64,000 nucleotides of DNA from Granulicella sp. S156. Lineage in GTDB: Bacteria > Acidobacteriota > Terriglobia > Terriglobales > Acidobacteriaceae. Below, one piece after another: positions 27,038 to 42,875 of the stretch (positions are counted from its first letter, which is position 1; each line of letters opens with the position of its first letter). The notes under the pieces are model-generated. The model saw nothing but the letters and a program-made list of their open reading frames with translations. It did not search any database and was not told the origin of the DNA. The position numbers and the translations under genes are program-made. Location: assembly GCF_009766105.1 (NCBI RefSeq), contig NZ_LMUH01000009.1, positions 399,428 through 463,427 of the forward strand, in the 5' to 3' direction.

Positions 27038-27567
27038 CGGTGTCTCCTGACCAAGGACGAAGGATCATAATCGTACTACGCAGCTTTGGCTCTCTTATGA
27101 AAGACGAACCAGCTCCTTCAGCAGTTGCAACCCTGAAGTACGCCAGCCTCAAGGCTAGAGCAGTTTTACAGTGGGTGTAGAGCGGAGCGGAAGATTTTTG
27201 CGTGGTTTTCTCCAAGAAAACCACACTGCAATCCTTTTCCGAGGCCACGGTAACTGTGAAACTGCTCTAGATCGCCAGACACAGATGTACTTACTAAGAT
27301 GCAACTTATTTTTTATAACCGATATAAATATTAGGGTTGAGTTGAGCTGCAAGGCCGAGGGACGTCATTCGGTAGATAGCCAGCCACGGAAGCGGGGCAT
27401 CTTGTCAGGATGCGGGTGGAAGATCATCCTTACCGCTCCATGCCCGAACCTTTGGGTGTGACCTGCTTCAGGGGCTAGCCTGCAACATGTTAACCATACT
27501 GGCAGGTATAGTGACGCAAAGGGGTCGGTGAAGGTTTCCAACGTCAATTTGCGGGAGAGCGATAATC
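27038..27567. other. 530-bp divergent intergenic region
   Basis: It separates the divergent efflux operon and the HAD-UbiA gene and contains repeat element A (27155-27270). No protein or RNA gene is recognised in the rest. AT-rich DNA around 27290-27340 (TTATTTTTTATAACCGATAT) may hold the promoter of the HAD-UbiA gene. Confidence 0.5.
27155..27270. repeat. Structured repeat element, copy A
   Basis: Terminal inverted repeats of 18 bases (CTAGAGCAGTTTTACAGT and its complement with one wobble) enclose a perfect 10-bp central hairpin, GTGGTTTTCT-CCA-AGAAAACCAC. The element is 116 bp. Read on the minus strand it aligns in layout with copies at 29112 and 42192. Confidence 0.85.
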
Positions 27568-29112
27568 GTGCTGCAGACGGAGTCAGCGAGTGGCCGTGAG
27601 GAGCTTAGACGGGACGGCATAGGGCCGCACCTTGTTCTGCCCGCTGGTTTGCCGGTGTGTGTGGATCTGGATGGCACCCTCATCAAATCTGACTCGCTGG
27701 TCGATTCGGTGCTGGTCATGGCGCGGCAATCTCCTCTTGAGCTGTTGGGCATTCCCGGTTGGATCGCGCAGGGCAAGGCAGCCTTTAAACGGCATGTGGC
27801 CTCCGCGATTGAACTGGATGTGGAGCATCTGCCCTACAACCGCCCTTTGCTGGAATGGCTTCGTCAGCAGGCGGCCGAAGGCCAGGAGATCTATCTGGCG
27901 ACGGCGGCTGATCGCGCTCTGGCTGACCGCGTCGCAGCATATCTTGGGATCTTCCGTGGGGTTTTGGCTTCCGACGGCGCAACAAACCTGGCCGGAGGCA
28001 ACAAGCTTGCAGCGTTCCGCGAGCGCTTCGGCGACAACTTTTGTTACATCGGTAACGCCAGGCCCGACGCCGAGGTGCTGGCCGTCTGCCAATCGCCCAT
28101 GGTCGCTAATCCGGATCGTGCGCTGCGGACAGCGATGCAACATGCGGGAACGTCTCCAGTTGCAGTCTTCAACGACAGCTCTCCCAAGCTCAAGAGCTGG
28201 CTGAAGGCTGTGCGGCTGCACCAATGGGCCAAGAACACTTTGATCTTCGTTCCTCTGCTGCTCGCCCATGCCTGGAACTCAGATACGTTTACGGACACTT
28301 TTGCAGGAGCCGTTGCCGCTTTTCTCAGCTTCGGCCTCTGCGCCTCTGCGACTTACATCATCAATGATTTGTTGGATATAGAAGCAGACCGCAGACACCC
28401 TCGCAAACGAAACCGTCCTTTTGCGGCAGGTGATCTGTCGGCAATCTCGGGCGTAGTGGTGGTCGTGCTGCTGATGATCGCAGCCGTAGTCCTGGCGGTT
28501 GCGCTTCCCCGGATCGTCGCGGCCGCGCCGGGTCCCTATGAGCTGGCACGGCCCTATAAGTTCCTGTCCTGGCTCGCAATCTACACGGCGACGACCTTGA
28601 CCTACTCCTTATATCTGAAGCGCAAACTGCTCTGGGACGTTTTTGTCTTGAGCGGGCTGTACACCATTCGCATTCTTGCCGGCAGCGGGGCCACAGGCAT
28701 CGTGGTCTCGGCCTGGCTGGCGGGTTTCAGTGTCTTCTTCTTCCTTTCCCTGGCCTTCGTCAAGCGATTTAGCGAGTTGGAAGGCCTGCAGGCCAGCGGG
28801 AAAGTAGTCACCAATGGGCGAGGTTACTTCGTCAGTGACCTGGAGCAGCTGCGTGCCTTGGGAACCGGTGCGGCCTATGCGGCGGTCGTCGTAATGACGC
28901 TGTATATCAATAATCCTGAGAGTAAGCTGCTCTACCACCATCCTGTCCGCCTGTGGTTGGTGGTTCCGGTGCTTTTGCTATGGCTGAGCCAGATATGGAT
29001 GCTGGCTAGTCGTGGCGAAATGCACGACGACCCCGTGGTCTTTGCCATTACGGACAAGCGCAGCCTGCTGCTGGGCGCGCTGATGGCGGTGGTCATCTGG
29101 TGGGCGCTGTAA
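27568..29112 (+). CDS. HAD phosphatase-UbiA prenyltransferase fusion
   Basis: A 514-residue two-domain protein. Residues 28-205 form a HAD-type hydrolase (CVDLDGTLIKSD with the catalytic Asp pair at 33 and 35; ATAADR as motif II; a less canonical GNARPD as motif IV). Residues 215-514 are a UbiA-family membrane prenyltransferase with the first prenyl-diphosphate motif NDLLDIEAD (266-274) and HPRKRNRPFAAGDLS just after it, over about eight helices. Related proteins include decaprenyl-phosphate phosphoribosyl transferases, whose product needs a dephosphorylation step, so the fusion may join consecutive reactions; this is inference. The start is GTG with GGGAGAG upstream. Confidence 0.88.
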   Translation: MLQTESASGREELRRDGIGPHLVLPAGLPVCVDLDGTLIKSDSLVDSVLVMARQSPLELLGIPGWIAQGKAAFKRHVASAIELDVEHLPYNRPLLEWLRQQAAEGQEIYLATAADRALADRVAAYLGIFRGVLASDGATNLAGGNKLAAFRERFGDNFCYIGNARPDAEVLAVCQSPMVANPDRALRTAMQHAGTSPVAVFNDSSPKLKSWLKAVRLHQWAKNTLIFVPLLLAHAWNSDTFTDTFAGAVAAFLSFGLCASATYIINDLLDIEADRRHPRKRNRPFAAGDLSAISGVVVVVLLMIAAVVLAVALPRIVAAAPGPYELARPYKFLSWLAIYTATTLTYSLYLKRKLLWDVFVLSGLYTIRILAGSGATGIVVSAWLAGFSVFFFLSLAFVKRFSELEGLQASGKVVTNGRGYFVSDLEQLRALGTGAAYAAVVVMTLYINNPESKLLYHHPVRLWLVVPVLLLWLSQIWMLASRGEMHDDPVVFAITDKRSLLLGALMAVVIWWAL

Positions 29113-29221
29113 GCATTTCCCCTATTACTGTGAATCGGATGAGTTCTGCGAGTGCCGTTTTTCTTGGGAAAAAACCGCGCACAAGTCTTTCCTTTCGGCC
29201 TGCACCCATAGGGGAAATGCT
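29112..29221. repeat. Structured repeat element, copy B
   Basis: Perfect 14-base terminal inverted repeats (AGCATTTCCCCTAT), starting at the last base of the stop codon of the HAD-UbiA gene, with a central imperfect hairpin around GTTTTTCTTGGGAAAAAAC. It sits between that gene and pheS. Confidence 0.85.
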
Positions 29222-29263
29222 GTAGGGGCGGTTTAGAATAAAAAGGCGACCTAGGGAAAACCG

Positions 29264-30367
29264 TTGAATATTCCGCAACTTATAGATTTCACAGAGGCGT
29301 CACTCGATGCCGCCTTCGCTTCCGTTCGCAATGAAGCAGAAGCCGCCGTTGCCGCGCCCGGCTTTGAGGCCGAGCAGTTCCGGCTGGAGTGGCTGGGGCG
29401 TAAGCAGGGTCACCTGAAGGCGATCTCCGATGCATGGCTCAAAGCCGCGCCGCCAGAGGCGAAGAAGCTGATCGGCCAGCGCTTCAATGCGCTGAAGGAA
29501 CAGGTTGAAGGCTTTCTGATCGCAGCCAGCGCGGGTGCGGTGGTCAAGCCTGCTTCAGCGGGGCTGGATGTAACGCTCCCTGGCAGCTCCCAGCGCGTCG
29601 GCGTCGAGCATCCGTTGGTCAAGACGATGGCCGAGATCGTCGGCGTGTTCCAGCGTATGGGCTATTCCGTTGGCCTGGGACCTGAGGTCGAGAGCGATTT
29701 TTACAACTTCGAGGCATTGAACTTTCCGCCCAACCACCCCGCCCGCGATACGCAGGACACGCTGGTCGTCGCCGAGCAGGAGGGCAAACCGCTGCGCGAG
29801 CGTCTGCTGATGCGTACGCATACGTCACCGGTGCAGATCCGCTCCATGCTGGAGCAGGCCCCGCCACTGCGGCTCGTGATTCCCGGCAAGGTGCATCGCA
29901 ATGATGCTGCCGACGCCACGCACTCGCCGGTCTTCCACCAGGTCGAGGGGCTGTGCGTGGACACAAACATTACCTTCTCGGACCTCAAGGGCACGCTCGA
30001 CCATGCCATGAAGGCGTTCTTCGGTTCGGCGGTCAAGACGCGTTTCTTCCCGTCGTTCTTTCCCTTCACCGAACCGAGTGCGGATGTGCAGATCTCCTGC
30101 ATCTTCTGCGGCGGCAAGGGCTGCCGCAAGTGCAAGTACTCGGGCTGGATCGAGCTGCTGGGCTGCGGTATGGTCGACCCCGCGGTCTTCGAGGCCGTGA
30201 ACCAGCGCCGCATCGAACTGGGTCACGACCCGGTCTATGACACCCGCCGCATCAGTGGTTTCGCTTTCGGCATGGGCGTGGATCGTATTGCGATGATGAA
30301 ATACGGAATTAGCGACATCGGATTGCTTTATTCCGGTGATATGAGATTTTTGGAGCAGTTCGCTTGA
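29264..30367 (+). CDS. pheS: Phenylalanyl-tRNA synthetase alpha subunit
   Basis: The catalytic subunit of the (alpha-beta)2 enzyme that charges tRNA-Phe. It has 367 residues: an N-terminal coiled-coil arm (about 1-90, tRNA contact), then the class II core with FQRMGYSVGLGPEVESDFYNFEALNFP, motif 2 (LRLVIPGKVHRNDAADATHSPVFHQVEG) and motif 3 (GFAFGMGVDRIAMMKYGI). A Cys cluster CIFCGGKGCRKCKYSGW lies near 280-296. The start is TTG with a GGGAAAA ribosome site. Its stop overlaps the pheT start (TTGA), so the two are translationally coupled. Confidence 0.97.
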   Translation: MNIPQLIDFTEASLDAAFASVRNEAEAAVAAPGFEAEQFRLEWLGRKQGHLKAISDAWLKAAPPEAKKLIGQRFNALKEQVEGFLIAASAGAVVKPASAGLDVTLPGSSQRVGVEHPLVKTMAEIVGVFQRMGYSVGLGPEVESDFYNFEALNFPPNHPARDTQDTLVVAEQEGKPLRERLLMRTHTSPVQIRSMLEQAPPLRLVIPGKVHRNDAADATHSPVFHQVEGLCVDTNITFSDLKGTLDHAMKAFFGSAVKTRFFPSFFPFTEPSADVQISCIFCGGKGCRKCKYSGWIELLGCGMVDPAVFEAVNQRRIELGHDPVYDTRRISGFAFGMGVDRIAMMKYGISDIGLLYSGDMRFLEQFA

Positions 30368-32484
30368 ATATTCTGACGAAATGGTTGAGATCCTATCTCC
30401 CTGAACTGTCGGTCGACGATCGCCAGCTTGCCGAAGATCTAACCTTGCGTGGTATCGCGGTTGAAGGTGAGTTTGACGCTTCATGTGGCGGTTCGCGCTT
30501 TGAGATGGACATCACGACCAACCGTGTCGACGCCATGAACCACTACGGTGTTGCACGCGAGACAGCGGCGATCTATGACGTGCCGCTTGCTTCGTTGGCG
30601 GAAGGTATTGCCGCACCGGTTGCTGAGACGGCAAAGGGCGAAGGTTTCCCGGTGCGCATCGAAGCGCGCGATCTATGCGGGCGGTTTACAGCGCGAGTGA
30701 TTCGCGGCGTTACGGTTGGACCTGCAAAGGGCCTTGTGGCCGGGTACTTTGCCGCGCTGGGACAAAAGCCGATCTCCGCCCCGGTAGATGTAACGAACTT
30801 TGGATGGCTCGCAATGGGTCAGCCCACGCATGTGTTCGACCTCGACACCCTTGAGGGCGGCATCGTTGTGCGCCGTGCGAAGGCGGGCGAGAAGCTGCGG
30901 CTGCTCGATGGCACCGAGCGCACGCTGGTGGCGGATGATTTGGTCGTCGCCGACGAGAAGAAGGCTCTGGGGTTGGCCGGAGTGATGGGCGGATGGGACT
31001 CGCGTGTGACCGAGACCACGAAGAACATCCTTGTCGAGGCCGCATGGTTCGACCCGTCGGCGATTCGCGCGAGTTCGCGCCGTCATGGACTGCACACGGA
31101 TGCCAGTCACCGCTTCGAGCGCGGAGCAGACTTCAATGCCGCACCGCTAGGAAATAATCTCGTTACCCGTCTGGTCGTCGAGCAGGCGGGCGGCGAAGTG
31201 GTGGGACCGCTGGTCGATGTCATCGTTCCTGAAATCCAGGCAAAGACCGCCGATCGTACGCCGATCGTGTTGCGCGTCCGTGAGGTGCAGCGGCACCTGG
31301 GCACGACGCTTGAAGACGCTGCGTGGCAGGGCGGCGAGCGGACATCCGGATTGAGTGAGGCTATTGTCGAGCAGTATCTCGGGGCTCTGGGTTGTGGGCT
31401 CACGGCGACCGGTGCGGTTGCAGGCGAGTATGGCGTCAAGCTGCCGAGCTGGCGGCTCGATCTGGAACGCGAGATCGACCTCATCGAAGAGGTGGCGCGC
31501 GTCTACGGCTACAACAAGTTTGCCGACACGCTCCCCGCATTTGCGGGTGCGGTCGTCGAACAACCGCATGCTGAGCAGGAGAGGGCGATTCGTGAGACCC
31601 TGTGCTCGCTGGGCTTCAGCGAGGCGATCTCCAGCACCTTTACTTCTGCTGAAGAAGCCGCGATGTTTGGTGGCGCGGCAGCAGGTGCTGTGGCGATGGG
31701 CAATCCGCTGAGTGAAGAGGCCGGCATGCTGCGGCCATCGCTGGTGCCGGGTATGGCGACGATGCTCGCGCATAATCTGCATCGCGATGTAAACGAGGTG
31801 CGGTTGTTTGAGCTGGGCACGGTCTTCACCGGATCGACAGCCGAGGTGAAGGAACATACGGGACTCGCGCTGGGCGCAACCGGAGCGGCTATCGCAACCT
31901 CGCTGTATGGGGCGCAGGACGCATTGTTCTACGAGACGAAGGGCGCTATTGAGCGGCTGCTCGCAAAGTTCGAAGGGACGGCGCGGTTCGATGCCGGGCC
32001 TCTTCCAGCGTGGATCGAGCCGGGCCGCGGTGCGCGCGCTTTGCTCGATGGCGAGGTGGTTGCGGTATTCGGGGAATTGAGTGCGTCCGAGTCGCAGCGC
32101 CGCAAGCTGCGCCAGACCTGCGTCCTTGCTGAAGTTGGAGCGAACCTCTTGCTGCGTCGCGCACTGCGGCAGCCGGTCTCCCGGGACATCTCGCGCTATC
32201 AGGCCGTCGAGCGCGATTTTTCGTTCGTCTTCCCGGACGCCGTGCGGTGGCAGCAGATCGATGAGGCATTGCGCGGGCTGGGTATCGCAGAAACGCAGCG
32301 CATTACGCCCGTCGAGATCTTCCGCGATGCGAAGGGCAAGGCAGTCGCTGCCGGGCATTACTCAGCGCTGGTGCGCGTAGTGTTTCAGTCGAACGAACGC
32401 ACTTTGACCGAAGAGGACCTCGGTAGCTGGTCGGATAAGACTGTTACTGCGCTGGTTGGTCTGGGTGGGGTACATCGGGCATAG
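30364..32484 (+). CDS. pheT: Phenylalanyl-tRNA synthetase beta subunit, short form
   Basis: The 706-residue beta subunit, which supports tRNA binding and carries the editing site. After MNILTKWLRSYLPELSVDDRQLAEDLTLRGIAVEG the sequence jumps directly to FEMDITTNRVDAMNHYGVARE. The roughly 105-residue EMAP/OB-type tRNA-binding domain that interrupts this region in E. coli PheT (795 residues) is missing. The B3/B4 editing region (VDVTNFGWLAMGQPTHVFDLD), B5 and the C-terminal FDX-ACB anticodon-binding domain (SRYQAVERDFSFVFPDAV to the end) are present. Starts with TTG overlapping the pheS stop. Confidence 0.95.
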   Translation: MNILTKWLRSYLPELSVDDRQLAEDLTLRGIAVEGEFDASCGGSRFEMDITTNRVDAMNHYGVARETAAIYDVPLASLAEGIAAPVAETAKGEGFPVRIEARDLCGRFTARVIRGVTVGPAKGLVAGYFAALGQKPISAPVDVTNFGWLAMGQPTHVFDLDTLEGGIVVRRAKAGEKLRLLDGTERTLVADDLVVADEKKALGLAGVMGGWDSRVTETTKNILVEAAWFDPSAIRASSRRHGLHTDASHRFERGADFNAAPLGNNLVTRLVVEQAGGEVVGPLVDVIVPEIQAKTADRTPIVLRVREVQRHLGTTLEDAAWQGGERTSGLSEAIVEQYLGALGCGLTATGAVAGEYGVKLPSWRLDLEREIDLIEEVARVYGYNKFADTLPAFAGAVVEQPHAEQERAIRETLCSLGFSEAISSTFTSAEEAAMFGGAAAGAVAMGNPLSEEAGMLRPSLVPGMATMLAHNLHRDVNEVRLFELGTVFTGSTAEVKEHTGLALGATGAAIATSLYGAQDALFYETKGAIERLLAKFEGTARFDAGPLPAWIEPGRGARALLDGEVVAVFGELSASESQRRKLRQTCVLAEVGANLLLRRALRQPVSRDISRYQAVERDFSFVFPDAVRWQQIDEALRGLGIAETQRITPVEIFRDAKGKAVAAGHYSALVRVVFQSNERTLTEEDLGSWSDKTVTALVGLGGVHRA

Positions 32485-32564
32485 TGCAGTGAGATGAGAA
32501 GTGACAAGTGGTAAGTGACAAGTGATCTCCCTTCCACTTGTCACTTACCACTTCTCACTGCACT
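32483..32564. repeat. Inverted repeat of AAGTG units behind pheT
   Basis: A 30-base right arm (32535-32564) is complementary to a left arm that carries a 12-base insertion; both are built of GTGACAAGTG/GGTAAGTG units. It begins inside the pheT stop codon. It may terminate pheST transcription. Confidence 0.8.
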
Positions 32565-32692
32565 TCCCCAGAGACCTTGCCGGGCGTAGGGAGAATTCAG
32601 AAAGGTTCCATTTCGAATTCCGCACCTCAAATCCACTACGCGAATCGCTATACTTCAGCCTGATTTACTGTGCGCGGAGGCAACGGCAAAAG

Positions 32693-32959
32693 ATGAGTTC
32701 ATCGACCATCAGTGTGGACGAGTTCCAGGCGCTGGAACAGAAGGTACTGCAGACCGTCGAGCTCATCAAAAAAGAGCGCGAGGCACGCGCTGTGGCCGAG
32801 TCTGAACGCGATGCGGCGCGTACCGAAGCCGCCTCGCTCCGCGAGAAACTGTCGGCAGCCAGCGGGGCACAGGCTGAAGTGGAGAGCCTGAACCGTGAGC
32901 GCGAAGCCGTGAAGTCGCGCGTGGAGAAGATGCTCGCGCAGATGGATGAGCTTCTTTAG
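32693..32959 (+). CDS. Small coiled-coil protein (ZapB-like position)
   Basis: An 88-residue protein, almost entirely a heptad coiled coil (FQALEQKVLQTVELIKKERE to the end, KSRVEKMLAQMDELL). Size, structure and its place directly before zapA point to a ZapB-like cell-division factor, which binds ZapA in other bacteria; sequence alone cannot prove that. A GGAGG site lies about 11 bases before the ATG. The open frame extends upstream to 32522 through the repeat, which is not considered coding. Confidence 0.75.
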   Translation: MSSSTISVDEFQALEQKVLQTVELIKKEREARAVAESERDAARTEAASLREKLSAASGAQAEVESLNREREAVKSRVEKMLAQMDELL

Positions 32960-32986
32960 GAAACAGGAAACAGGAAACAGGAAACA
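32959..32986. repeat. GGAAACA heptamer array, four perfect copies
   Basis: Four tandem GGAAACA copies beginning at the G of the TAG stop codon, exactly as at 1799. They fill the space between the coiled-coil gene and zapA. Confidence 0.9.
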
Positions 32987-33009
32987 GGGTTAAGGGGCTA
33001 GGAGAAGCG

Positions 33010-33384
33010 TTGGCGGAGATGCAACAGAGAAGTGCGGCGGAGGTTTCACGGTCCGAGCTCGCGGCGCAGGCTGCGGGTGCGGTCGTCGTCGAGATTTACG
33101 ATCAGGTCTATCAACTGCGGGGCACAGACCCTGCTTACATCGAAAAGCTCGCGGGCATTGTCGACGGCAAGATGCGCGCCGTCTCCGCCCATGGTGCGAC
33201 GGTCGATTCGTTGCGCGTGGCCGTGCTGGCCGCGCTGAATATCGCCGACGAACTGGTAGCGTTGCGCGCGCGCTATGACACACTGAATGGCAGCCTGAAT
33301 CAAGCACAGACATCAGCGAGAACCCGTGCAGGCTCCCTGATGGGCATGCTGGACGAAGTGCTTGCCGAACGCAAAGCTGGCTAG
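33010..33384 (+). CDS. zapA: Cell division protein ZapA
   Basis: A 124-residue ZapA-type protein that bundles FtsZ filaments at the division site. After a short variable start, VVVEIYDQVYQLRGTDPAYIEKLAGIVDGKMRAVS is the beta-strand plus helix signature, followed by TVDSLRVAVLAALNIADEL and a C-terminal coiled coil (ALRARYDTLNGSL). A TTG start at 33010 is preferred since AGGAGA lies 5 bases before it; an ATG at 33019 is possible. It likely forms an operon with the small coiled-coil gene before it. Confidence 0.9.
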   Translation: MAEMQQRSAAEVSRSELAAQAAGAVVVEIYDQVYQLRGTDPAYIEKLAGIVDGKMRAVSAHGATVDSLRVAVLAALNIADELVALRARYDTLNGSLNQAQTSARTRAGSLMGMLDEVLAERKAG

Positions 33385-33439
33385 GTTTCAATCAGCGCCG
33401 ACGGAGAAAATCTCTTCTCTCCAGATCACTTCTTCCGCG

Positions 33440-33463
33440 AACCCACCCTAAGGGGTGGGTTTT
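33440..33463 (+). terminator. Rho-independent terminator behind zapA
   Basis: AACCCACCC-TAAG-GGGTGGGTT followed by TTTGC. It overlaps the last codons of the convergent VWA gene. Confidence 0.75.
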
Positions 33464-35223
33464 GCTGTGAAGGCGGCAACGCCCAATTGCACGTTATCTA
33501 CCGGAACCTCCACGGCGCCGGCTCGGTCTCCGATGGTGTCATGGACACCTAGACGAAAGAAGAAATTGCCTTTCTCGGGAACTGCGATCGTCTGTCGCAG
33601 GCCGATGCCGAACTGCATCAACTGCCGATAGGCTGCGTTGTCGAGTTCCAGGGGACTCGTGGTGATGATCGAGTTCACGGTCTCACCCTCGTTGTTATAG
33701 ACCACCGCCACAAATTCGAGCCGTCCGTGGTGCATTCCATTGGGTGTACGGGTGAAGCTGATCTTGTGGGGATCTACCGCGTACAGGACGTGATAGTTGC
33801 GGAAAGGCTTTCTCTGGAAGTCCGCGCGAAGATAGTTGTTGGGTGGCAGGGGCTCGTTCTTCTGGAGTTTCTGAACTTCGGAGTCCGCCGCAATATTGGT
33901 ATTGAAGATCAGTTCGGTCGGAGGGATGGCGCCGAGGGCCATCGAGACTTCGAACCCCTGCTTCATGCCCGGATGTGACAAGGCGCTCTGCGGGTCGTAG
34001 GCCCCTGTAAGTTTGTTGGATGTCGTTGGTGTCACCCTGTGGGCCGCGCCCGCACGTGCAAAGTAGCCGTGCCGGTACAGCAATTGCCCACCGCCGTCGG
34101 CGAGCGTCACCTTGATCTTCCGAAATTGTCCGTTCCAGTTTTTGTTCGTTGGGGTGTAGGCGATGGTGTAGTAGTTGGAGCCACCGTCGACAATCTGGCC
34201 GATAACGTTCTTGAGGCCATTGGTGTTGTAGTAGGCTTTGCCGCCGGTGGCGTCTGCCGCGTCGTCCATATCCGCGTGCAGGAAGAAGTGCGTAGGGGCC
34301 ATCGCACCCAGCGGCGGCGGGCCTCTGCGTGCCGCGCTGAAGGCTGGGTTGGTTTCGAGGCCCCGGGTGTCGACGGGATAGACCGCGACTCTGCTCAGGG
34401 CGAGCACGTCGGTGGCCTGGGTCAGGATACTGTTGAAATCGCTGAAGAGGTCGAAGTCCGGGAAGGGATCGCCTATTCCATCGCCATAGGCGGCAAAGGG
34501 GATCGAGCCGGTAAACCAGATCAGGTTCTTGCGCCCCGGAAAACCCTCCAGATAGCGTCCCATCATCTGCAAGCCGTTGATGAGAATCTCTTGCCGCGAC
34601 CGTTGGTAAACATAGTTGCGTCCCATCAGCGGTGGGATCGTCGGCATATCCCGCTTGCTCTCCACGGCTGCAAGCAGCACCTTAGGGTCGGCAGAAAAAC
34701 CCTGGATGAGGTGCATCTCGGTGTCCAGTTGAAAGACTGCGATCGAGGTCCCAGGCTGCACGGTCTTCATGTAGTCGATCACTTGCTGGCGGAGATACAT
34801 CTGCGCACTGAGGGGGCTGTCCAGGGCGTCCAGCAGGATTACCGTATTGGAGCCCCTGTTGGGCACCGGCGTGAAGTTGGTAAAGGTATTGGGCGGTAGC
34901 TTGGGCAGGGCTTGCTGTCTGGCGGCGCTGGCATCGACCGTCGCGTCGTGCTCTTCAAAGCTGTCGAGCGTCTGCGGAGCGCCATCCTCCTGCACGACGA
35001 GGTCGCTCCGTTTGAGTCCCTTGATCGGATTGCCTTTGGCGTCCGTTACAACCACATCGAGCACGACGGCACGCGCGGTCGCGGTGAGGGTGGCGACGTT
35101 TGGGTCGCGCCGCTGCAGCGGAGGAGCTGGAGTGTCATCGGAAGTTTGAGGGGTTTGTGCCTGCGCCGCGATACCCAGGAGAACGGCGCTACAAACGGCA
35201 GCGGTCCAAAGAGCCTTGTTCAT
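33448..35223 (-). CDS. Secreted VWA-domain protein 2 (TIGR03436-like)
   Basis: A 591-residue exported protein with a signal peptide (residues 1-22, AAQAQ). The family segment VVLDVVVTDAKGNPIKGLKRSDLVVQEDGAPQTL is followed by a VWA-like domain (about 125-370). The MIDAS region reads ILLDALDSPLS rather than DxSxS, so classical metal binding is doubtful. SNYYTIAYTPTNKNWNGQFRKIKVTL closes the VWA part, followed by an extra C-terminal beta-rich domain (about 400-591) absent from the two shorter homologues at 3479 and 37806. Ligand and function unknown. Confidence 0.87.
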   Translation of the reverse strand: MNKALWTAAVCSAVLLGIAAQAQTPQTSDDTPAPPLQRRDPNVATLTATARAVVLDVVVTDAKGNPIKGLKRSDLVVQEDGAPQTLDSFEEHDATVDASAARQQALPKLPPNTFTNFTPVPNRGSNTVILLDALDSPLSAQMYLRQQVIDYMKTVQPGTSIAVFQLDTEMHLIQGFSADPKVLLAAVESKRDMPTIPPLMGRNYVYQRSRQEILINGLQMMGRYLEGFPGRKNLIWFTGSIPFAAYGDGIGDPFPDFDLFSDFNSILTQATDVLALSRVAVYPVDTRGLETNPAFSAARRGPPPLGAMAPTHFFLHADMDDAADATGGKAYYNTNGLKNVIGQIVDGGSNYYTIAYTPTNKNWNGQFRKIKVTLADGGGQLLYRHGYFARAGAAHRVTPTTSNKLTGAYDPQSALSHPGMKQGFEVSMALGAIPPTELIFNTNIAADSEVQKLQKNEPLPPNNYLRADFQRKPFRNYHVLYAVDPHKISFTRTPNGMHHGRLEFVAVVYNNEGETVNSIITTSPLELDNAAYRQLMQFGIGLRQTIAVPEKGNFFFRLGVHDTIGDRAGAVEVPVDNVQLGVAAFTAKPTP

Positions 35224-35352
35224 TCCAAACTCCAGTCACTGGGTATACGGAAGGCGAACGGGGAAGGACTCCCGTCAGCTATTCATTGTTAACTCCAAAG
35301 GCCGCCTCTAGTTCCTAAAGGATTGAAAATAGGCCTCTCAGGAGTCCGGAGG

Positions 35353-35381
35353 TTGCACATTGGGGCGATGACCGTTAGCAT
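35353..35381 (+). promoter_or_regulatory. Sigma-70-type promoter of the 6S RNA
   Basis: TTGCAC and TAGCAT are separated by 17 bases, placing the transcription start at about 35388-35391, exactly where the RNA's closing stem begins. Confidence 0.7.
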
Positions 35382-35388
35382 CCATTTC

Positions 35389-35583
35389 AGAGACCGGCCT
35401 ACAAAGCAGGTACACGAACAACGCAGGTTGAACCAATAATCATTGAACAGGGGTCCAGCTCGTATACATGGCTCGGTGTGCTAGGTCCGCCAGTCCGGAA
35501 AGCCTAAAGAGCCACGGCAGGGTCCCACCGTCTTAGACGGGTTCACCTGCGCTTCGCTGTACGGCCCAGTGGGTCGGTCTTTG
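35389..35583 (+). ncRNA. ssrS: 6S RNA (SsrS)
   Basis: About 190 bases that fold like 6S RNA, the mimic of an open promoter that sequesters housekeeping RNA polymerase. The closing stem pairs AGACCGGCCTAC (35391-35402) with GTGGGTCGGTCT (35569-35580) using only G-U wobbles. A second stem pairs CGCAGGT (35422) and AACC with GGTT and ACCTGCG (35540-35551). The expected large central bubble follows, with a small 3'-side hairpin CCGTC-TTA-GACGG (35528-35540). An apical arm contains GTCCGCCAGTCCGGAAAGCC, close to the conserved 6S apical sequence. A well-spaced promoter precedes it. Identification is by structure and remembered motif, not by covariance search. Confidence 0.8.
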
Positions 35584-35650
35584 CTTCTCTCCGCGCCCTT
35601 CCCGGGCTGATCTGTTGAGCGTTGATCTCGGGCGCGTATCCTCAAGAGTG

Positions 35651-36469
35651 ATGATGTCTTTGCTGCATGCGACGGCGATGTTCGTGCCGGGATTTCTGCG
35701 TCTCGGACGCCTGCACCTGCCCGTGTACGGCCTCTTTGCCGCAGCAGGGCTGGTTGCGGCGTTGGGATTGAGCCAGCGCACCGCCCGTTTTGTAGGAATT
35801 CCTGCGGAAAAGCTGTGGGATGCCGGCTTGTTTGCGATGATTGCGGCGTTTTTGGCCTCCCGTGCGCTGCTGGTGGTCATGGATCCGCAGGCGTTCCTGA
35901 GGTATCCGCTGCTGGTGCTGTCCCTGCCGTCGCTGACCTACGGGGGCATGGCGCTTACCGGACTGCTGGTAGCGGTGTATCTGCGCCGGAAACAGCTGCC
36001 GCTGCTTGATGTGCTGGATGCCTGGGCCCCTTGCGCGGCATTGCTGGGGGCGGTGTTGAGCCTGGGGCACTACTTCGAGGGCACAGACGCCGGGATGCCT
36101 ACCCATTTGCCGTGGGGTATCGTGACGCCGGGAGACACGGTGCTGGGCCGGGTGCATCCGGTGCAGATCTATGCAATGGCCGCCTATCTGGTGCTGTGCG
36201 TGGTTCTGTTGCGGAGGCTTGCAGGCCGCCTTCGTGCAGGTGAAGTTGCCGGGTACGGTTTGCTGGCTGGAGGGGCGATTTCGTTCGCCCTCGATATGTT
36301 GCGGCAGCCCATCGACAGCGTCGGCGATGGCTGGCTCGATCCTCCGCAGTGGATCGCGCTGGGGTCGATACTCGCGGGTGCGATGCTCTTCACGAGAACG
36401 CAGTCAATACAGAAAAAGAAGATTGTCCTGACCACCGATTCGGGCACACAAATGAAGGAGTTGGTCTAA
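35651..36469 (+). CDS. Lgt-like membrane protein with altered active-site motif
   Basis: About 272 residues with seven hydrophobic helices and the prolipoprotein diacylglyceryl transferase layout: LPVYGLFAAAGLVAALGL near the start, SLTYGGMALTGLLVAVYLRRK in the middle and HPVQIYAMAAYL late. The family signature, normally GGRIGNFINGE with catalytic Arg and Asn, reads LSLGHYFEGTDAG: the Arg is Ser and the Asn is His. It could be a paralogue with another lipid-linked substrate or an inactive form. The exact start is uncertain (TTG 35615, GTG 35648, ATG 35651 or 35654). Its TAA is followed immediately by the ATG of the next gene. Confidence 0.75.
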   Translation: MMSLLHATAMFVPGFLRLGRLHLPVYGLFAAAGLVAALGLSQRTARFVGIPAEKLWDAGLFAMIAAFLASRALLVVMDPQAFLRYPLLVLSLPSLTYGGMALTGLLVAVYLRRKQLPLLDVLDAWAPCAALLGAVLSLGHYFEGTDAGMPTHLPWGIVTPGDTVLGRVHPVQIYAMAAYLVLCVVLLRRLAGRLRAGEVAGYGLLAGGAISFALDMLRQPIDSVGDGWLDPPQWIALGSILAGAMLFTRTQSIQKKKIVLTTDSGTQMKELV

Positions 36470-37801
36470 ATGCCATCGCAAAACATGCTGCCCAAGGGGC
36501 AGAGACGGCGCACGGTAAAGCATGAGTATCGGGCACAGCGCACGCTGGCCCAGGAGCGCGAGGCCGCGCTTCGTGCCTCCGGCGAGGTCGACGAGGATGC
36601 CCCGGTCCAGTCCTACGACACGGCGGAGTTCAGTTCGCCGAGCTTGCCAACCTCGCCCTTCGCCTTCACTCCCGGGCTGGTTACGACCGGGCCGAGTGGC
36701 GGCAAGCATCCCCAGGAGGAGCAATCCCCCCGGCGTTACCCCGCACCCTATGTGTTTCCGGACGACGCGCCCGAGATTCAGGTACTCGACGACCTGGAGG
36801 CGCAGGACGGCGTGCGCAGCTTTACGGCGGATTCCGCTGCCTCCGGCATGCGGCTCGATGCCTACCTGGCCAAGGCCCTGCCGGACATCAGCCGCGCGCG
36901 TGTGGTGCTGCTTATTGAAAAGGGCCAGGTGACGGTCGATGACAAGCCGGGCAAGGGCAAGCAGAAGCTGAAGGGTGGCGAGTTGGTCGAGATTGAAGGC
37001 GAGCCCCGCCCCGAGCCGCTGCATGCCGAACCGGAAGATATCCCGCTGGACATCGTGTATGAAGACGACGATCTGGCGGTGGTCAATAAAGCGGCCGGCA
37101 TGATGGTTCATGCGGGCGCAGGCGACTCTGAGCGCAACCGCGGCACGCTGGTCAATGCGCTGTTGTTCCACATGGGTAAATCGCTGTCGCAGGTCAGTGG
37201 AGATCTGCGGCCGGGCATTGTGCATCGGTTGGACAAGCAGACTAGCGGGCTGATCGTCGTCGCGAAGAACGACTCGACGCATCGCAAGCTGAGTGAGATG
37301 TTCAGCGAGCGGCGGATGCGCAAGGTGTACGTGGCGTTGGTGCATGGCTGGATCAAGCCCGCTTCCGGGCCGCAGGACTCGGGCACGATTCAGTTGCCGA
37401 TCAGCCGCGACCTCGTCCGCCGCATCCGCATGACGACGCGGCGGCCTGGTGGGCGCAGCGCGGTTTCGCACTGGAGCGTGCTGGAGAAGATCGATGGCCC
37501 GTATGGAAAATTTACCGTGGTCGAAGTGCGTATTGAGACCGGCCGTACCCACCAGATCCGTGTCCACATGCAGGCGATCGGGCATCCAGTGGTGGGCGAT
37601 TTCCTCTACGGAGCGCCGCACCGCATCAACCCCATTGGGGGCCCGCAGGCGGTAGAAGAAGGATTCGAACTGGATCGCAATTTCCTGCACGCCGCCGAGT
37701 TGGAGTTCGCACACCCTCGAACGGGCGAAAAATTAGCGCTGCACGCAGAACTTCCTGAGGAGCTAGTGCAGGTTCTGGAGCGTGTAAGGGGCGCAAGTTG
37801 A
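36470..37801 (+). CDS. RluD-family pseudouridine synthase with N-terminal extension
   Basis: A 443-residue RNA-modifying enzyme. An S4 domain (about 122-175, MRLDAYLAKALPDISRARVVLLIEKGQVTVDDK) precedes the RluA/RluD catalytic domain with HRLDKQTSGLIVVAKND, whose Asp255 is the catalytic residue, and GRTHQIRVHMQAIGHPVVGD. By homology it converts uridines in 23S rRNA to pseudouridine. Unusually, about 115 extra residues precede S4, basic at first (KGQRRRTVKHEYRAQRTLAQERE) and then Pro/Ser-rich, probably disordered. The gene starts directly at the stop codon of the Lgt-like gene. Confidence 0.92.
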   Translation: MPSQNMLPKGQRRRTVKHEYRAQRTLAQEREAALRASGEVDEDAPVQSYDTAEFSSPSLPTSPFAFTPGLVTTGPSGGKHPQEEQSPRRYPAPYVFPDDAPEIQVLDDLEAQDGVRSFTADSAASGMRLDAYLAKALPDISRARVVLLIEKGQVTVDDKPGKGKQKLKGGELVEIEGEPRPEPLHAEPEDIPLDIVYEDDDLAVVNKAAGMMVHAGAGDSERNRGTLVNALLFHMGKSLSQVSGDLRPGIVHRLDKQTSGLIVVAKNDSTHRKLSEMFSERRMRKVYVALVHGWIKPASGPQDSGTIQLPISRDLVRRIRMTTRRPGGRSAVSHWSVLEKIDGPYGKFTVVEVRIETGRTHQIRVHMQAIGHPVVGDFLYGAPHRINPIGGPQAVEEGFELDRNFLHAAELEFAHPRTGEKLALHAELPEELVQVLERVRGAS

Positions 37802-37805
37802 TACG

Positions 37806-38894
37806 ATGGTTGGCATGATCATAAGCAGCAGAGCACGCTGGGTCCTCCTGGCCCTGGCGTGCGTTACAGGCCCGCAGGCCGCAATCTCGCAGACGGCAAC
37901 CCCGCAACCCGCGGTCACACCCGCCACACCTCCCGCAGCCACCCAGCAGCCGACGGCGACCCCTGCAGCTCCGCCAGCGACGACGCAGCAGCCGGCGTCT
38001 CCTGCGCAGCAGACCGCCCCTACTACGCTGCAGCAACGTGATGATGCGCCGCGCGAGCAGACAGGCACGATCAAAATCAACGTCAACGAAGTCGATCTGA
38101 TCTTTACCGTAACGGGTAAGGACGGCCATTTCGTTGCTGGCCTGCAACAGCAGAACTTCGGTCTGCTCGACGACGGCAGACCTCCGGTGCGCGTACGCCG
38201 CTTCGTTCAGCAGACGAACCTTCCGCTGCGCGTGGGCATCATGCTCGATACCAGCAGCTCCATCCGGCAGCGCTTCGAGTTCGAACAGCAGGCGGCCACC
38301 GACTTTTTACTGCAGGTGCTGCATCCGGCCGATCGTGCGTTTGTGGAGGGTTTTGACGTCCAGCTCAACCTCGCGCAGGACTTTACCAACCGTGTCGATA
38401 TGCTGGACACCGGTATCCGCCGGTTGCGACCCGGCGGTGGCACAGCGCTCTTCGACTCGCTTTATAGGACGTGCAAGGACCAGATGCTGACGCTGCAGCA
38501 GGACACCGCTGTGCGCAAGGCGATCGTGCTGGTCTCGGACGGCGACGACGACTATAGCCGTGTTCTCGAGACTGAAGCCATCAAGATGTGTCAGCGCGCG
38601 GAGACGATCATTTACACCATCAGCACGAACGTCGGCCCCAGCAGGGACAAGGGTGACGACGTGCTGCAGCAGATCGCGGACGCCACGGGCGGTCAGACCT
38701 TCTACCCCAAGCGTATTGACGATGTGGCTGTTGGCTTCCACAATATCGAAGAAGAGCTGCGCAGCCAGTATCTGCTGGTCTATGAGCCGGCGGACTTCAA
38801 GCATGACGGCTCGTTCCGCACGATTTACCTGCATTCGATCGATACGCGTTACTCGGTCCGGGCAAAGAAAGGCTACTTCGCGCCGCACGAGTAA
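37806..38894 (+). CDS. Secreted VWA-domain protein 3 (TIGR03436-like)
   Basis: A 362-residue exported protein: signal peptide (about 1-29), a Pro/Ala/Thr/Gln-rich linker with repeated TPQPAVTPATPPAATQQP-like units (30-75), and the segment IKINVNEVDLIFTVTGKDGHFVAGLQQQNFGLLDDGRPP. Then comes a VWA domain with a full MIDAS (MLDTSSSIRQ) and LVSDGDDDY, and the closing SQYLLVYEPADFKHDGSFRTI. Similar in length and motifs to the protein at 3479. It follows the pseudouridine synthase by 4 bases and may share its transcript. Confidence 0.88.
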   Translation: MVGMIISSRARWVLLALACVTGPQAAISQTATPQPAVTPATPPAATQQPTATPAAPPATTQQPASPAQQTAPTTLQQRDDAPREQTGTIKINVNEVDLIFTVTGKDGHFVAGLQQQNFGLLDDGRPPVRVRRFVQQTNLPLRVGIMLDTSSSIRQRFEFEQQAATDFLLQVLHPADRAFVEGFDVQLNLAQDFTNRVDMLDTGIRRLRPGGGTALFDSLYRTCKDQMLTLQQDTAVRKAIVLVSDGDDDYSRVLETEAIKMCQRAETIIYTISTNVGPSRDKGDDVLQQIADATGGQTFYPKRIDDVAVGFHNIEEELRSQYLLVYEPADFKHDGSFRTIYLHSIDTRYSVRAKKGYFAPHE

Positions 38895-38939
38895 ACTTTT
38901 TACCTCGAATACGGGTCTATCAGAATAGCGAGGTCCGTG

Positions 38940-39515
38940 ATGAAGCTGAGTCTATCCCCTGTCCTTCTGACCGTTGCGCTCTGTGCAGCGGTCGGCTTTA
39001 CCCTTAACGCCCAGCAGCCGCAGGGGGTTATGGAGGCGCTGCGGGGCATTTCCTCGCAGCCGGCGAACCATACGGCGTTTACCTTCGACCACAACATGCT
39101 GCAGGCGGCCGAAGGCTACATGGACGACAGCGCTTCTGGAAAGCGTGCGTTCGCTGCGCTGAACAGCATTACCGTGGAGAACTATCACTACCACGAGCCG
39201 GTGTTTTACCTGCCTGAGAGTATGTCTGCGCTGGTAGCTGCGTACAACGCCGCAGGCTGGAAACACCTGGTCAACCAGAATGCTTCACCGCATGACTCAG
39301 CCTCACCGCATGCGCCGATCACCGATCTGTGGCTGCACTTCCACAGCGGCGAGATCGAAGATGTGACAGTGCTGGTGCGGGGTCAGCGCGAGATGAACCT
39401 GATCGAGGTCTCAGGTGTGTTGAGCCCTCTGGACCTTGTGCATCTGAGTGGGCACTTCGGCATTCCGAAGATCGACCCCGGTGCGGTGATGGTGCCCGCG
39501 CCTCCGGGTAAGTAG
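38940..39515 (+). CDS. Small secreted protein of unknown function
   Basis: A 191-residue protein with a signal peptide (MKLSLSPVLLTVALCAAVGF, then TLNAQ). The mature part has no cysteine and contains HTAFTFDHNMLQAAEGYMD, YHYHEPVFYLPESMSALVAAY and VTVLVRGQREMNLIEVSGVLSPLDLVHLSGHFGIPK. The last segment resembles short domains that end several acidobacterial periplasmic proteins. ATG 38940 has GAGGT 5 bases before it. It follows VWA protein 3 on the same strand after 45 bases. I do not recognise the family. Confidence 0.7.
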   Translation: MKLSLSPVLLTVALCAAVGFTLNAQQPQGVMEALRGISSQPANHTAFTFDHNMLQAAEGYMDDSASGKRAFAALNSITVENYHYHEPVFYLPESMSALVAAYNAAGWKHLVNQNASPHDSASPHAPITDLWLHFHSGEIEDVTVLVRGQREMNLIEVSGVLSPLDLVHLSGHFGIPKIDPGAVMVPAPPGK

Positions 39516-39530
39516 CTGCTGGGTAAGTAA

Positions 39531-40580
39531 CTACCAGCCGTAACGCTCAACCTCGCCGAGCAGTGCGAGCTTACGCTCGGGCTTGAGGAAGCTGGCTTCG
39601 ATAGAGTTGGCTGCGATCTCACGAAGCTGGTCCAGCGAAAGCTCGAACTCCGTGTGTGCAAGCAGATATTCGTCGAGCAGGGTTGCCCCAAAGAACGGCG
39701 GGTCGTCGGAGTTGAGCGTGACCATCAGGCCTTCTTCGAAGTAGCGCCGCGCCGGGTGCTCCAGGAGTGCCGGACAACAGCCGGTGCGGAGGTTGCTCGT
39801 GATGTTGAGCTCGAGCGGGATCTGCCGCTGGGCCAGCACTTCGATGAGATCCAGGTCCTGCTGCGCGGTGAGCGCGTGGCCGATGCGTTCGGCTCCGATA
39901 TTCAGCGCCGCCCAGATGCTCTGTGGCCCGGTCGACTCGCCCGCATGACAGGTCAGGTGCAGGCCTGCGGCTTTGGCCTCCGCATAGAGCTCTCGGAAGT
40001 CCTGCGCAGGGCCGCGAGCTTCGTCGCCGCCGATGCCTATGCCGACGACGCTGGGATACTGGTGCTGCAACTCCGCTGCCTTGCGGAAGACTCGCGCGCA
40101 CTCCTCGATCCCGAAGTGGCGTACTGCGTCGATGATCCACAGCAGCGAGATACCGAAGTCTTTTTCGCCACGCAGGCGGCCGCGCTCGATGGCGGCCATG
40201 ACCTCGTCCACGTCGAGCCGCGCAAAGTGATAGAGAATGCCGATGGAGATGTAGGCCTCGGCGTGGCGCACGCCCTGTGCGGCAAGATCGCGCAGCATGG
40301 CGTAGGTGATGGTCTCGTAGTCGGCAGCCGAGTGCAGCCTTTGGGTGACGGCCTTGAAGCTCATCAGGAAGCTGGGGAAGTCGCTGTAGCTGTAGACCTG
40401 CTTGGCGGCTTCGAGCGTCAGTGGGATGGCGTCGTTGGCTTGCGAAAGCTCGACGAGAGTTTCAGGGGTGATCGAGCCCTCGAGGTGCAGATGTAACTCG
40501 GCCTTGGGCAGGCCACGAAGCCAGGTGAGCGGATCGGGTTGGGTGGGCGAATCTTGCGCTGGGCCGGTACGACGTGCCAT
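39531..40580 (-). CDS. add: Adenosine deaminase family protein
   Basis: A 349-residue amidohydrolase-fold enzyme, expected to deaminate adenosine (or a close analogue such as aminodeoxyfutalosine) to the inosine form. The metal-binding HLHLEG is at about 29-34. GGDEARGPAQDFRELYAEA follows the substrate region, HAGESTGPQSIWAAL carries the next metal His and the catalytic Glu, RIGHALTAQQDLDLIEVLAQRQIPLELNITSN gives the next His, and NSDDPPFF provides the Asp ligands. All key residues are present. A 10-bp-arm palindrome lies in the 5' leader just before the start codon. Confidence 0.92.
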   Translation of the reverse strand: MARRTGPAQDSPTQPDPLTWLRGLPKAELHLHLEGSITPETLVELSQANDAIPLTLEAAKQVYSYSDFPSFLMSFKAVTQRLHSAADYETITYAMLRDLAAQGVRHAEAYISIGILYHFARLDVDEVMAAIERGRLRGEKDFGISLLWIIDAVRHFGIEECARVFRKAAELQHQYPSVVGIGIGGDEARGPAQDFRELYAEAKAAGLHLTCHAGESTGPQSIWAALNIGAERIGHALTAQQDLDLIEVLAQRQIPLELNITSNLRTGCCPALLEHPARRYFEEGLMVTLNSDDPPFFGATLLDEYLLAHTEFELSLDQLREIAANSIEASFLKPERKLALLGEVERYGW

Positions 40581-40588
40581 TCAAGTAG

Positions 40589-40614
40589 TGTAGTCAACTC
40601 CCCTGTTGACTACA
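40589..40614. promoter_or_regulatory. Perfect inverted repeat before adenosine deaminase
   Basis: TGTAGTCAAC-N6-GTTGACTACA, ending 9 bases from the start codon. It could be a repressor site or an RNA hairpin that hinders translation. Confidence 0.6.
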
Positions 40615-40678
40615 TAAAGGCTTGTTCCTGGACGGCGCGATCCTGACGATTCGATGCCAGGGATCGCGCGGCCATGAG

Positions 40679-41362
40679 CTAGCTCCATTTGCTGTCGCGG
40701 CGACCGCCGCCATTGCCGAAGATCTGTAGCAGGAAGATGAAGATATTGAGGGCGTCGAGATAGATGCTGAGAGCGAGCATTACCGGCGAAGTGCCGGCGG
40801 GGCTGTCGCGGAGCCGCATGAAGTCGACCAGTAGAAGGACACTGAAGATCGCCAGGCCCATCCAGGCGTAGACGCCGGGGCTGATGAAGTGAAAGAACAT
40901 CGAGAGGAAGCCAATAATGACCAGCCCAATCAATGCGGCAAAGGCGTAAGAGGCCAGCTTGCGGTAGTCGAAGCGCGCGATCTGCGCGATCATGGCCATT
41001 ACCGCCATGCCCATGGCTGTCGTCACGGCGGCCTCAAAGACGATGGTCTGGCCACCGGCCATATGCAGATAGACCTTGAGCAGCGGGCCGATCTCCACGC
41101 CCATCAGCACGGTGAAAGCGTAGAAGAGCACCAGGCCGAGGCCTGTGGAGCGGCGTGTGGCGGCCCGGATTCCGAAGATCAGCGCGAAGTTGAGCAGCAC
41201 TACAAACAGAAAGCTGATTCCCGGCAGATCCGGTGCGATGTAGGCGCCGAAGGCGGTAAAGAGGAATCCGGCAGTGGTAACCCAAAGCACCTTGCTGAGC
41301 AGGCTCGCGGTGGAGCGGCTGTCGAGGATGCGAATGCCCTGTGATGCGTCGATGGTTCTCAT
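40679..41362 (-). CDS. Bax inhibitor-1/YccA family membrane protein
   Basis: A 227-residue protein with seven predicted membrane helices, starting about residue 25 (VLWVTTAGFLFTAFGAYI), and the family segments YAFTVLMGVEIGPLL and SIYLDALNIFIFLLQIFG, which ends the last helix. BI-1/YccA proteins act as pH-dependent cation (calcium) leak channels or partners of membrane proteases such as FtsH. No operon partner is evident; the adenosine deaminase gene follows after about 100 bases on the same strand. Confidence 0.93.
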   Translation of the reverse strand: MRTIDASQGIRILDSRSTASLLSKVLWVTTAGFLFTAFGAYIAPDLPGISFLFVVLLNFALIFGIRAATRRSTGLGLVLFYAFTVLMGVEIGPLLKVYLHMAGGQTIVFEAAVTTAMGMAVMAMIAQIARFDYRKLASYAFAALIGLVIIGFLSMFFHFISPGVYAWMGLAIFSVLLLVDFMRLRDSPAGTSPVMLALSIYLDALNIFIFLLQIFGNGGGRRDSKWS

Positions 41363-41427
41363 GATGACAATCTTAAACCTCTGCAGGATTAGACGCTATG
41401 GGAGCTCCGGGGTCGCAAGGGGCGCGG

Positions 41428-42150
41428 TTAGGCGATGCGTTCGCCAGTGTCCGACTGCACGCTGACGGAGGAACCCTCAGATAGCAGAACACTTGCCGGT
41501 TCCTGCCGGTTGAGCACTGCGAAGGCCTCGCTGTAGAGGGCAGCGAAGTCGACGTCGATGGCGTGGCGGAGGATGGGGTAGGTCTCCCAGCGGGGATGCT
41601 GGACCTCGTAGGCGGAGGTGCTGTCGTCGCGACGTTTGGTATAGCCCCAGTAGTGCTCGGTAATGAACTCTTCTTCGCTGCCGGCGGCAATGGGCTGCGG
41701 GTTGGGTGAGGCTTCGACTCCCAGGCTGTGCCACCTACCACTGTGCTTCCACGAGTACTGCACGTCGAGCGATTGAGGGGTACTGGCGATGCTGGAGTGC
41801 GTCGGCAGGGTTGCGTAGCGCTCCTGGTAGAAGGTGTTGGCGACGAAGGTAATCGCGGCACGGGGAACGAACTCGCGGATAAAGACGACCCCGCGCCGGG
41901 GTGGGCCGTCGGATGGGGTGCGTTTGACATAAAAGCGCAGGTTCACTTCTTCAAACCGGGTGTGGAAGGGAATCGGCAGGCCTTTGAGGCGGACGCGGTC
42001 GAAAAGGAAGCCGACGAGCGAGACGTAGCAGCGGCCGTGGAAGAGATCGAGCTCAAGGCCTCGTGGGAGCCATGGCGTTATCGTTAACGGCTCGACCTCG
42101 TACTGCGCCATGATGAGCTTGCGCCACTCGGCGGTGAGGAAGGTGGACAT
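41428..42150 (-). CDS. YqjF-type DUF2071 protein
   Basis: A 240-residue cytoplasmic protein of the DUF2071 family: FLTAEWRKLIMAQYEVEPLTITPWLPRGLELDLFHGRCYVSLVGF near the start is characteristic (L-x-P-x-LP-x-G-x-x-x-D). FEEVNLRFYVKRTPSDGPPRRGVVFIREF follows, then a beta-rich C-terminal half. The family is related to acetoacetate-decarboxylase-like folds, but the reaction is unknown. It is separated from the upstream EfpL-like gene by repeat element C. Confidence 0.85.
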   Translation of the reverse strand: MSTFLTAEWRKLIMAQYEVEPLTITPWLPRGLELDLFHGRCYVSLVGFLFDRVRLKGLPIPFHTRFEEVNLRFYVKRTPSDGPPRRGVVFIREFVPRAAITFVANTFYQERYATLPTHSSIASTPQSLDVQYSWKHSGRWHSLGVEASPNPQPIAAGSEEEFITEHYWGYTKRRDDSTSAYEVQHPRWETYPILRHAIDVDFAALYSEAFAVLNRQEPASVLLSEGSSVSVQSDTGERIA

Positions 42151-42191
42151 GGGTTGTTGGTGAAGGTCTGCAGCGAAAGGGGGCGAGTTTT

Positions 42192-42303
42192 GAGCAGAAT
42201 CCCTATTGCTATCCCTTGGAAAGAGCTTAGGAGTGGCACTTTTCTTGGGGAAAAGTGCCGTTCAAATAATCGCCCCCCGCGCACAGCTATAGGGATTCTG
42301 CTC
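42192..42303. repeat. Structured repeat element, copy C
   Basis: 19-base terminal inverted repeats with one mismatch (GAGCAGAATCCCTATTGCT) and a perfect central hairpin GGCACTTTTC-N5-GAAAAGTGCC. The right end touches the stop codon of the minus-strand EfpL-like gene. Confidence 0.85.
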
Positions 42304-42875
42304 TAAGCTCGCCCTGCAAATTCGCGGTTTTCGGTGGATACCTTGACCTTTTCGCCTTCCTTGATGAAGAGAGGAACCTTGATCTCGAGGCCGGTCTGGA
42401 GGCGGGCGATCTTGGTGGCGCCGCTGGAGGTGTCGCCGCGGACGGCCGGCTCGGTGTAGGTGATGTCGAGCTCGACGAAGATGGGAAGCTGCAGGCCGAT
42501 GGGGCTGCCGTTGTACTTGTGGAGCTGGAGGAGGAGGCCGTCGAGGAGGAAGTCGGCGGCGTTGCCGACGGTGTCGTCGGAGAGAGTGTGGGTCTCGAAG
42601 CTCTCCTGATCGAGGAAGTGGAAGCCGTCGCCATCGTGGTAGAGGAAGGATGCCGGGACGAGTTCCAGGTCGGGCTCTTTGAACTTGTCCTGGGCCTTAA
42701 AGGTCTTATCAAAGACGGCGCTGGTGAGGAGGTTGCGCATCTTGAGGCGCACTAGCGTCTGGCCGCCACGAGCGGTGGGGGTGGAGATGTCGGAGTCGAG
42801 ACAGACGTAGGGTTCGTTCTCGAACTCGAAGAGATGCTTGCGTTTGACGTGGATTGCTTCGATCAGTGCGGCCAT
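42303..42875 (-). CDS. Elongation factor P paralogue (EfpL/YeiP type)
   Basis: A 190-residue three-domain EF-P-like factor that enters the ribosomal E site and relieves stalling at proline-rich stretches. The domain I tip reads STPTARGGQ with Arg36 at the apex. This resembles the SPTARG tip of EfpL/YeiP rather than the PGKG Lys loop or the SGRN Arg loop of EF-Ps that need lysylation or rhamnosylation. The C-terminal ends LSTENREFAGRA-like (VSTENREFAGRA), also as in EfpL. Whether this is the only EF-P in the genome cannot be seen here. A possible -10 (TATACT) lies about 21 bases before the start codon. Confidence 0.85.
   Translation of the reverse strand: MAALIEAIHVKRKHLFEFENEPYVCLDSDISTPTARGGQTLVRLKMRNLLTSAVFDKTFKAQDKFKEPDLELVPASFLYHDGDGFHFLDQESFETHTLSDDTVGNAADFLLDGLLLQLHKYNGSPIGLQLPIFVELDITYTEPAVRGDTSSGATKIARLQTGLEIKVPLFIKEGEKVKVSTENREFAGRA

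Follow-up and report, generated by a model that had tools for sequence, protein, structure and literature searches.

The window analysed here, a stretch of 64,000 nucleotides from Granulicella sp. S156, carries three palindromic elements, A, B and C, that measure 114–116 bp from TA to TA and are each built of a 15-bp inverted repeat, then an asymmetric inner stretch and then a central hairpin. The terminal inverted repeats and central hairpins that a preliminary description had reported for these copies were all present. Element A (27156–27269, minus strand) runs from TA to TA, with a divergent HlyD-type gene on one side and a UbiA-domain gene on the other; it was matched by model R1 at 102 bits in the covariance-model search of the genome (C26:426583–426696), and its central hairpin, with the stem GTGGTTTTC, lies at 27202–27224 (minus strand). 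Element B (29110–29224, plus strand) is likewise bounded by TA at either end. It opens with the TAA stop codon (29110–29112) of the UbiA-domain gene at 27568–29112, and comparison with an empty site marks 29110–29111 and 29223–29224 as the left and right copies of its duplicated target TA. In element C (42190–42305, plus strand) the left TA reads TT, the central hairpin GGCACTTTTCTTGGGGAAAAGTGCC occupies 42235–42259 (plus strand), and the right end forms the TAG stop codon (42303–42305, minus strand) of the elongation factor P gene at 42303–42875. Two of the copies are thus situated at stop codons, as had been noticed earlier.

A fourth family member, weak and degenerate, reaches the window only with its edge (1–45, minus strand). 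It starts outside the window (C26:399363–399472) and was scored in the covariance-model search at 38.3 bits with an E value of 4e-4 (row L255). RNA folding z-scores relative to dinucleotide shuffles were −7.6 for A, −3.6 for B and −6.3 for C. The sole Rfam match at gathering threshold in the window was 6S RNA (RF00013), at 35393–35579 (plus strand) with 57.9 bits.

Family size and shared anatomy

BLAST with each of the three copies returned dozens of relatives in the same genome. A covariance model built from 47 family copies gave 129 rows at E ≤ 1 over both strands, corresponding to at least 75 distinct places in the genome, of which 73 had genome-wide E values of 0.001 or lower. The number of places is a minimum because scoring covered 150 of the 1,446 first-look candidates. 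A total of no more than three copies in the genome would, by the preliminary description, have refuted it; with 75 places or more this does not apply, and the pattern is far beyond chance.

Matches at E ≤ 0.001 were obtained in 18 of 31 genomes, own genome included, and none in the other 13. Counted over both strands, they numbered at least 120 in G010, 85 in G008, 61 in G002, 54 in G004, 34 in G005, 33 in G003 and 31 in G019. G010 holds at least 49 distinct near-identical places, and the 20 copies sampled there were nearly identical, meaning that the element moved recently in that genome. A pattern describing one subtype, searched among 84,980 species, matched at least 119 stretches; all 119 were titled Acidobacteria, with Bryocella elongata, Terriglobus albidus and Granulicella among them. 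No match was obtained on plasmids when B or the G010 element served as query. The family is read here as a mobile DNA element of about 115 letters found in soil Acidobacteria, whose two ends remain mirror images while their sequence changes and which often coincides precisely with a gene's stop codon. A description of it was not found in the accessible part of the open-licence PubMed Central literature.

The shared anatomy was derived from 143 elements of 18 genomes. The outer TAGAGC is conserved. The 15-bp arm, preceded by TA, consists of GAGC and 11 further bases that are variable yet paired: positions 7–17 differ between subfamilies, yet pair with the opposite arm. Pairing falls steeply past position 17, so that the inverted repeat amounts to TA plus 15 bp, and positions 18–20 are conserved, unpaired and asymmetric (TACTG on the left, GGTG on the right). 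The centre is TTTTC-TTGG-GAAAA within a variable paired stem. Loop orientation agreed with that of the outer motifs in 113 of the 143 elements, disagreed in 3 and was ambiguous in 27.

Two further arrangements were observed. At L375:2327–2555 two family elements adjoin with overlapping ends, as would result from insertion of one element into the TA of the other, and at L077:1502–1536 a 35-bp palindrome consists of two family ends alone and is perhaps the product of an internal deletion.

Covariation of the arms

Of the 143 elements, 22 had fewer than 11 of 15 pairs in their arms and were dropped; in the 121 retained, Watson–Crick pairs filled 1670 of 1815 arm cells. Covariation was evaluated on 47 sequences. 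For alignment A2, 51 elements were selected by the pairing of their ends; 47 of these entered it and four were left out, L050 was turned by hand, and 11 loci gave no or only a weak element in that choice. The covariation proposed in the preliminary description is strong, with a score of 0.520 compared to 0.181 for shuffled sequences and 0.095–0.151 for slid structures. Cells changed on both sides numbered 207 against 57.6 in shuffles, and 95.8% of cells were paired against 76.8%, although the percent pairing of the arms in A2 is partly built in since elements were selected for arm pairing. That selection does not bear on the slid controls, the G·U/A·C count or the central helix. In two of the five covariation measures there was no clear excess over shuffles, namely double-change pairs (17 vs 14.7) and further pair types (36 vs 36.5).

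The element could be a structured RNA or a transcription terminator at gene 3′ ends, in which case the covariation would arise from RNA pairing. The strength of the covariation, the stability of the predicted folds, the many copies at stop codons and the convergent genes that flank 38 of 134 copies all speak for this. RNA pairing selected on one strand should, however, lead to an excess of G·U over A·C. Of 154 elements, the 132 with 11 or more of the 15 arm pairs were counted. Their arms held 46 G·U and 41 A·C; for the central stem the counts were 38 and 33, which become 21 and 27 upon removal of one spurious pair. Orientation relative to the gene with the abutting stop codon was the same in 24 cases and opposite in 37, which is not a significant bias (p = 0.12). 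With G·U and A·C about equally frequent and orientation unbiased, DNA symmetry is favoured over selected RNA structure. Near-identical bursts in one genome while congeners have none, and the absence of any Rfam match to the element at gathering threshold, argue in the same direction. A selected structured RNA, one of three readings offered in the preliminary description, is therefore very unlikely, and maintenance of the DNA palindrome is the better reading of the covariation. Compensatory covariation is commonly accepted as proof of RNA structure, and the present case cautions that it can also come from mobile DNA palindromes; the count of G·U against A·C provides a simple test separating the two.

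Changes in the arms were followed among copies with similar cores, where single-arm differences plateau at about 0.10 for each pair site and compensated doubles go on climbing to 0.30. In 11 clusters comprising 86 copies, some of which may mix subfamilies, 23 compensated doubles were counted, against 9.0 on average (sd 2.6) and 17 at most under permutation. Seven of these doubles were private to one copy, beside 52 single-arm changes that were private as well. This drift fits two readings, either that symmetric copies alone move or that an arm is rewritten from its partner. Template switching during replication would bring about the latter by copying arm from arm, with no function needed. It is an established process of arm homogenisation in the available text of PMC8604942, and the compensated doubles that single copies show where cores have diverged little are in line with it. 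According to the same text template switching also inverts spacers, yet loop orientation is concordant in 113 elements and discordant in 3, and this rarity of loop inversion counts against frequent plain template switching. Furthermore, the three unpaired positions past the arms remain asymmetric, single-arm mismatches persist in older copies and the dispersal of the element is left unexplained. As an explanation of the matching arms, template switching is possible but doubtful.

Insertion sites and stop codons

Site B is empty in G002, judged to be Granulicella mallensis MP5ACTX8, where a single TA (...GGGCACTATAGTGCCGG...) is found in place of the TA-element-TA of the window; this is the one clean empty site. 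Element A is absent from both G002 and G033, where its target has diverged. The left flank of C and its right flank with elongation factor P map to separate places in these two genomes, and C therefore sits at a synteny break, at which an element-mediated rearrangement is possible. For a copy in G010 (L120), three of eight left-flank orthologues reach the target, all three with TAA, and G008 has TGA in that region. An empty site for L120 was not found, its two flanks being on different contigs in relatives on account of misassembly or rearrangement. In G033, site B holds an unrelated, repeat-like insert of about 419 bp (L322, G033:C6:63300–64100).

TA was present at both ends in 82 of the 143 elements, and a pyrimidine preceded it in 137 of 164 pooled flanks, so that the target reads YTAR. 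The target TA of 134 elements was part of a stop codon in 52, within an ORF in 34 and intergenic in 48, while among 5,165 other TAs at the same loci these numbers were 100, 4,068 and 997, respectively. Relative to intergenic TAs, those of stop codons were enriched with an odds ratio of 10.8. At YTAR sites of elements with both TAs intact the ratio of stop to intergenic was 35:14 compared to 20:103, an odds ratio of 12.9; gene calls in these tests were simple ORF picks and the effect size is therefore approximate. The preference for stop codons suggests that the element lands where harm is least.

We infer, with a probability of roughly 0.83, that the family is a non-autonomous, MITE-like element of Acidobacteriaceae with TA|GAGC ends, a YTAR target, TA duplication, symmetric ends and a transposase acting in trans. 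The trans-supplied enzyme would recognise ends starting TA|GAGC and insert the element at a YTAR site under duplication of the TA. Insertion strongly prefers the TA of TAA and TAG stops, the element's own TAG keeping the frame closed. Of these features, the existence of the family, the duplicated TA at site B, the YTAR target, the stop-codon enrichment and the drift of the arms in pairs were observed directly. Movement would require mirror-image ends, such that master copies would have to alter both arms jointly, and each burst would then spread its own arm version. The symmetry is presumably needed during movement itself. The small MITE of the preliminary description is in this manner the reading that has held, on account of the dispersed copies, the TA duplication at B, the YTAR target and the recent burst in one relative, while its two companions, REP/RAYT and selected RNA, have not.

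A more specific version, which we regard as rather doubtful, combines these steps with recopying. The helper would read the outer TA|GAGC, the inner motifs and the pairing of the arms but not their letters; one arm would be recopied from the other on a hairpin template around each round of movement, and the 11-bp arms could drift freely as matched pairs. Insertion would be directed to stops, perhaps via translation or transcription ends. The matched drift of the ends in any case allows one to ask if a transposase reads symmetry instead of sequence.

Candidate helpers and known relatives

The family has several of the features by which bacterial MITEs are recognised, namely a short length without coding capacity (about 115 bp, the usual range being 70–300 bp), dispersed copies (at least 75 places), terminal inverted repeats and target duplication (one clean site, B). 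With regard to ends in common with an autonomous IS, TA|GAGC alone is in common with an IS5/IS427-type element of G010.

In searches for helpers by family (Y1/RAYT, IS630, IS5) no family tracked element number, and 1.89 Mb of loci yielded no autonomous relative sharing the inner ends. In order to find such twins, inverted TAGAGC-like pairs were collected from 481 loci, resulting in 20 candidates outside the 100–134 bp range. Fifteen of these, among them L363 and the longer L413 pair, turned out to be pairs of separate or truncated elements instead of a single larger one; at L446 and L418 the left end is without an intact partner and seems to be truncated. The remaining five comprised the short palindrome of L077, three Y1-flanking repeats (L210 twice, L219) and an IS5 element.

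The latter, an IS5-family element of G010 at L191:319–1219, has two overlapping ORFs (PF13340 and PF01609; NF033580), perfect 16-bp ends GAGCGTGTTTCATAAA and TA on both flanks. IS427-group elements mostly have 2-bp repeats and some have two overlapping ORFs, as far as the available text of PMC3281130 describes them, and the L191 element fits the group as tabulated there. It resembles the family in its TA|GAGC ends and in its 2-bp duplication of TA. Its inner ends GTGTTTCATAAA, however, match no family arm seen, and the IS5 type is missing from some element carriers. PF13340 of this type was found in five of eight genomes and was absent from G000, G002 and G019, and NF033580 matched 14 of 23 genomes, 9 of them over cut-off, with none in G015–G019, G024 and G030. 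IS5_3 matches were missing in G015–G019 and G030, all of which carry the element. Two further IS5_3 elements, located in G011 and G033, are flanked by YTA/TAR and differ in their ends. We put an IS5/IS427-type transposase as the putative helper at about even odds.

Movement by an IS630/Tc1-mariner transposase would equally account for the duplicated TA, and matches to the IS630-type DDE_3 occur in G004, G008 and G010. Such a helper, IS630-Spn1, has been proposed for RUP of Streptococcus pneumoniae, a 107-bp element with 108 copies in the text available from PMC2229807. RUP resembles the family, within the scope of that text, in size, copy number, intergenic location, terminal inverted repeats and a TA-containing target. 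It differs in that the family targets YTAR with strong enrichment at stop codons, has inner ends that vary by subfamily yet pair and has a conserved central hairpin, and in that several carriers are without IS630. DDE_3 was absent from G000, G001 and G002, and none of nine DDE_3 loci had TA-flanked TAGAGC ends. A helper of this kind is unlikely.

Bru-RS and RIME are alphaproteobacterial palindromes. ERIC/IRU of enterobacteria, 127 bp in the portions available of PMC2229807 and PMC10969869, is similar to the family in length, in being an imperfect palindrome and in its many intergenic copies; its host phylum is another, and the comparison is by description and not by alignment. The family works like RUP or ERIC and is not claimed as a member of either. 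It is a new, lineage-specific, MITE-like family defined by its conserved architecture, matched end drift and stop-codon preference. What is unusual is that its ends drift in matched pairs and that stop codons are its preferred targets, and it accounts for several hitherto unexplained gene-end repeats in Acidobacteriaceae genomes.

The link to RAYT transposases raised in the preliminary description corresponds to a REP-like element mobilised by a Y1 enzyme, RAYT or TIRYT, that acts on single-stranded hairpins. Structure is indeed kept as sequence varies, as Y1 substrates allow, and Y1_Tnp was detected in 24 of 31 genomes. It was not found, however, in the carriers G019 (98% complete), G010 and G030 (both incomplete), and no element adjoined any of 30 Y1 loci (L209–L238). 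The TA is duplicated at B, which is not known as a Y1 trait. REP/RAYT elements are 20–40 bp long with a GTAG (or CGTC) tag in the available text of PMC3733652, whereas the family elements measure 115 bp, their inverted repeats are flanked by TA, and neither tag is present in their consensus. TIRYTs with repeated inverted repeats are known in Acidobacteria from the same text, and these TIRtrons are, like the family, repeat families with long inverted repeats. The GGGGWSAS motif given there for TIRYTs, which use a Y1 enzyme, is missing from the family consensus, and the family model had no match at Y1 loci. Movement by a Y1 enzyme is thus most improbable. The Y1 transposase genes of G002 and G000 (L210:1378–2144 and L219:1453–1964) are flanked by inverted repeats of their own, CAGAGCGCTGTAAGCGC, and these loci are probably TIRYT-type units.
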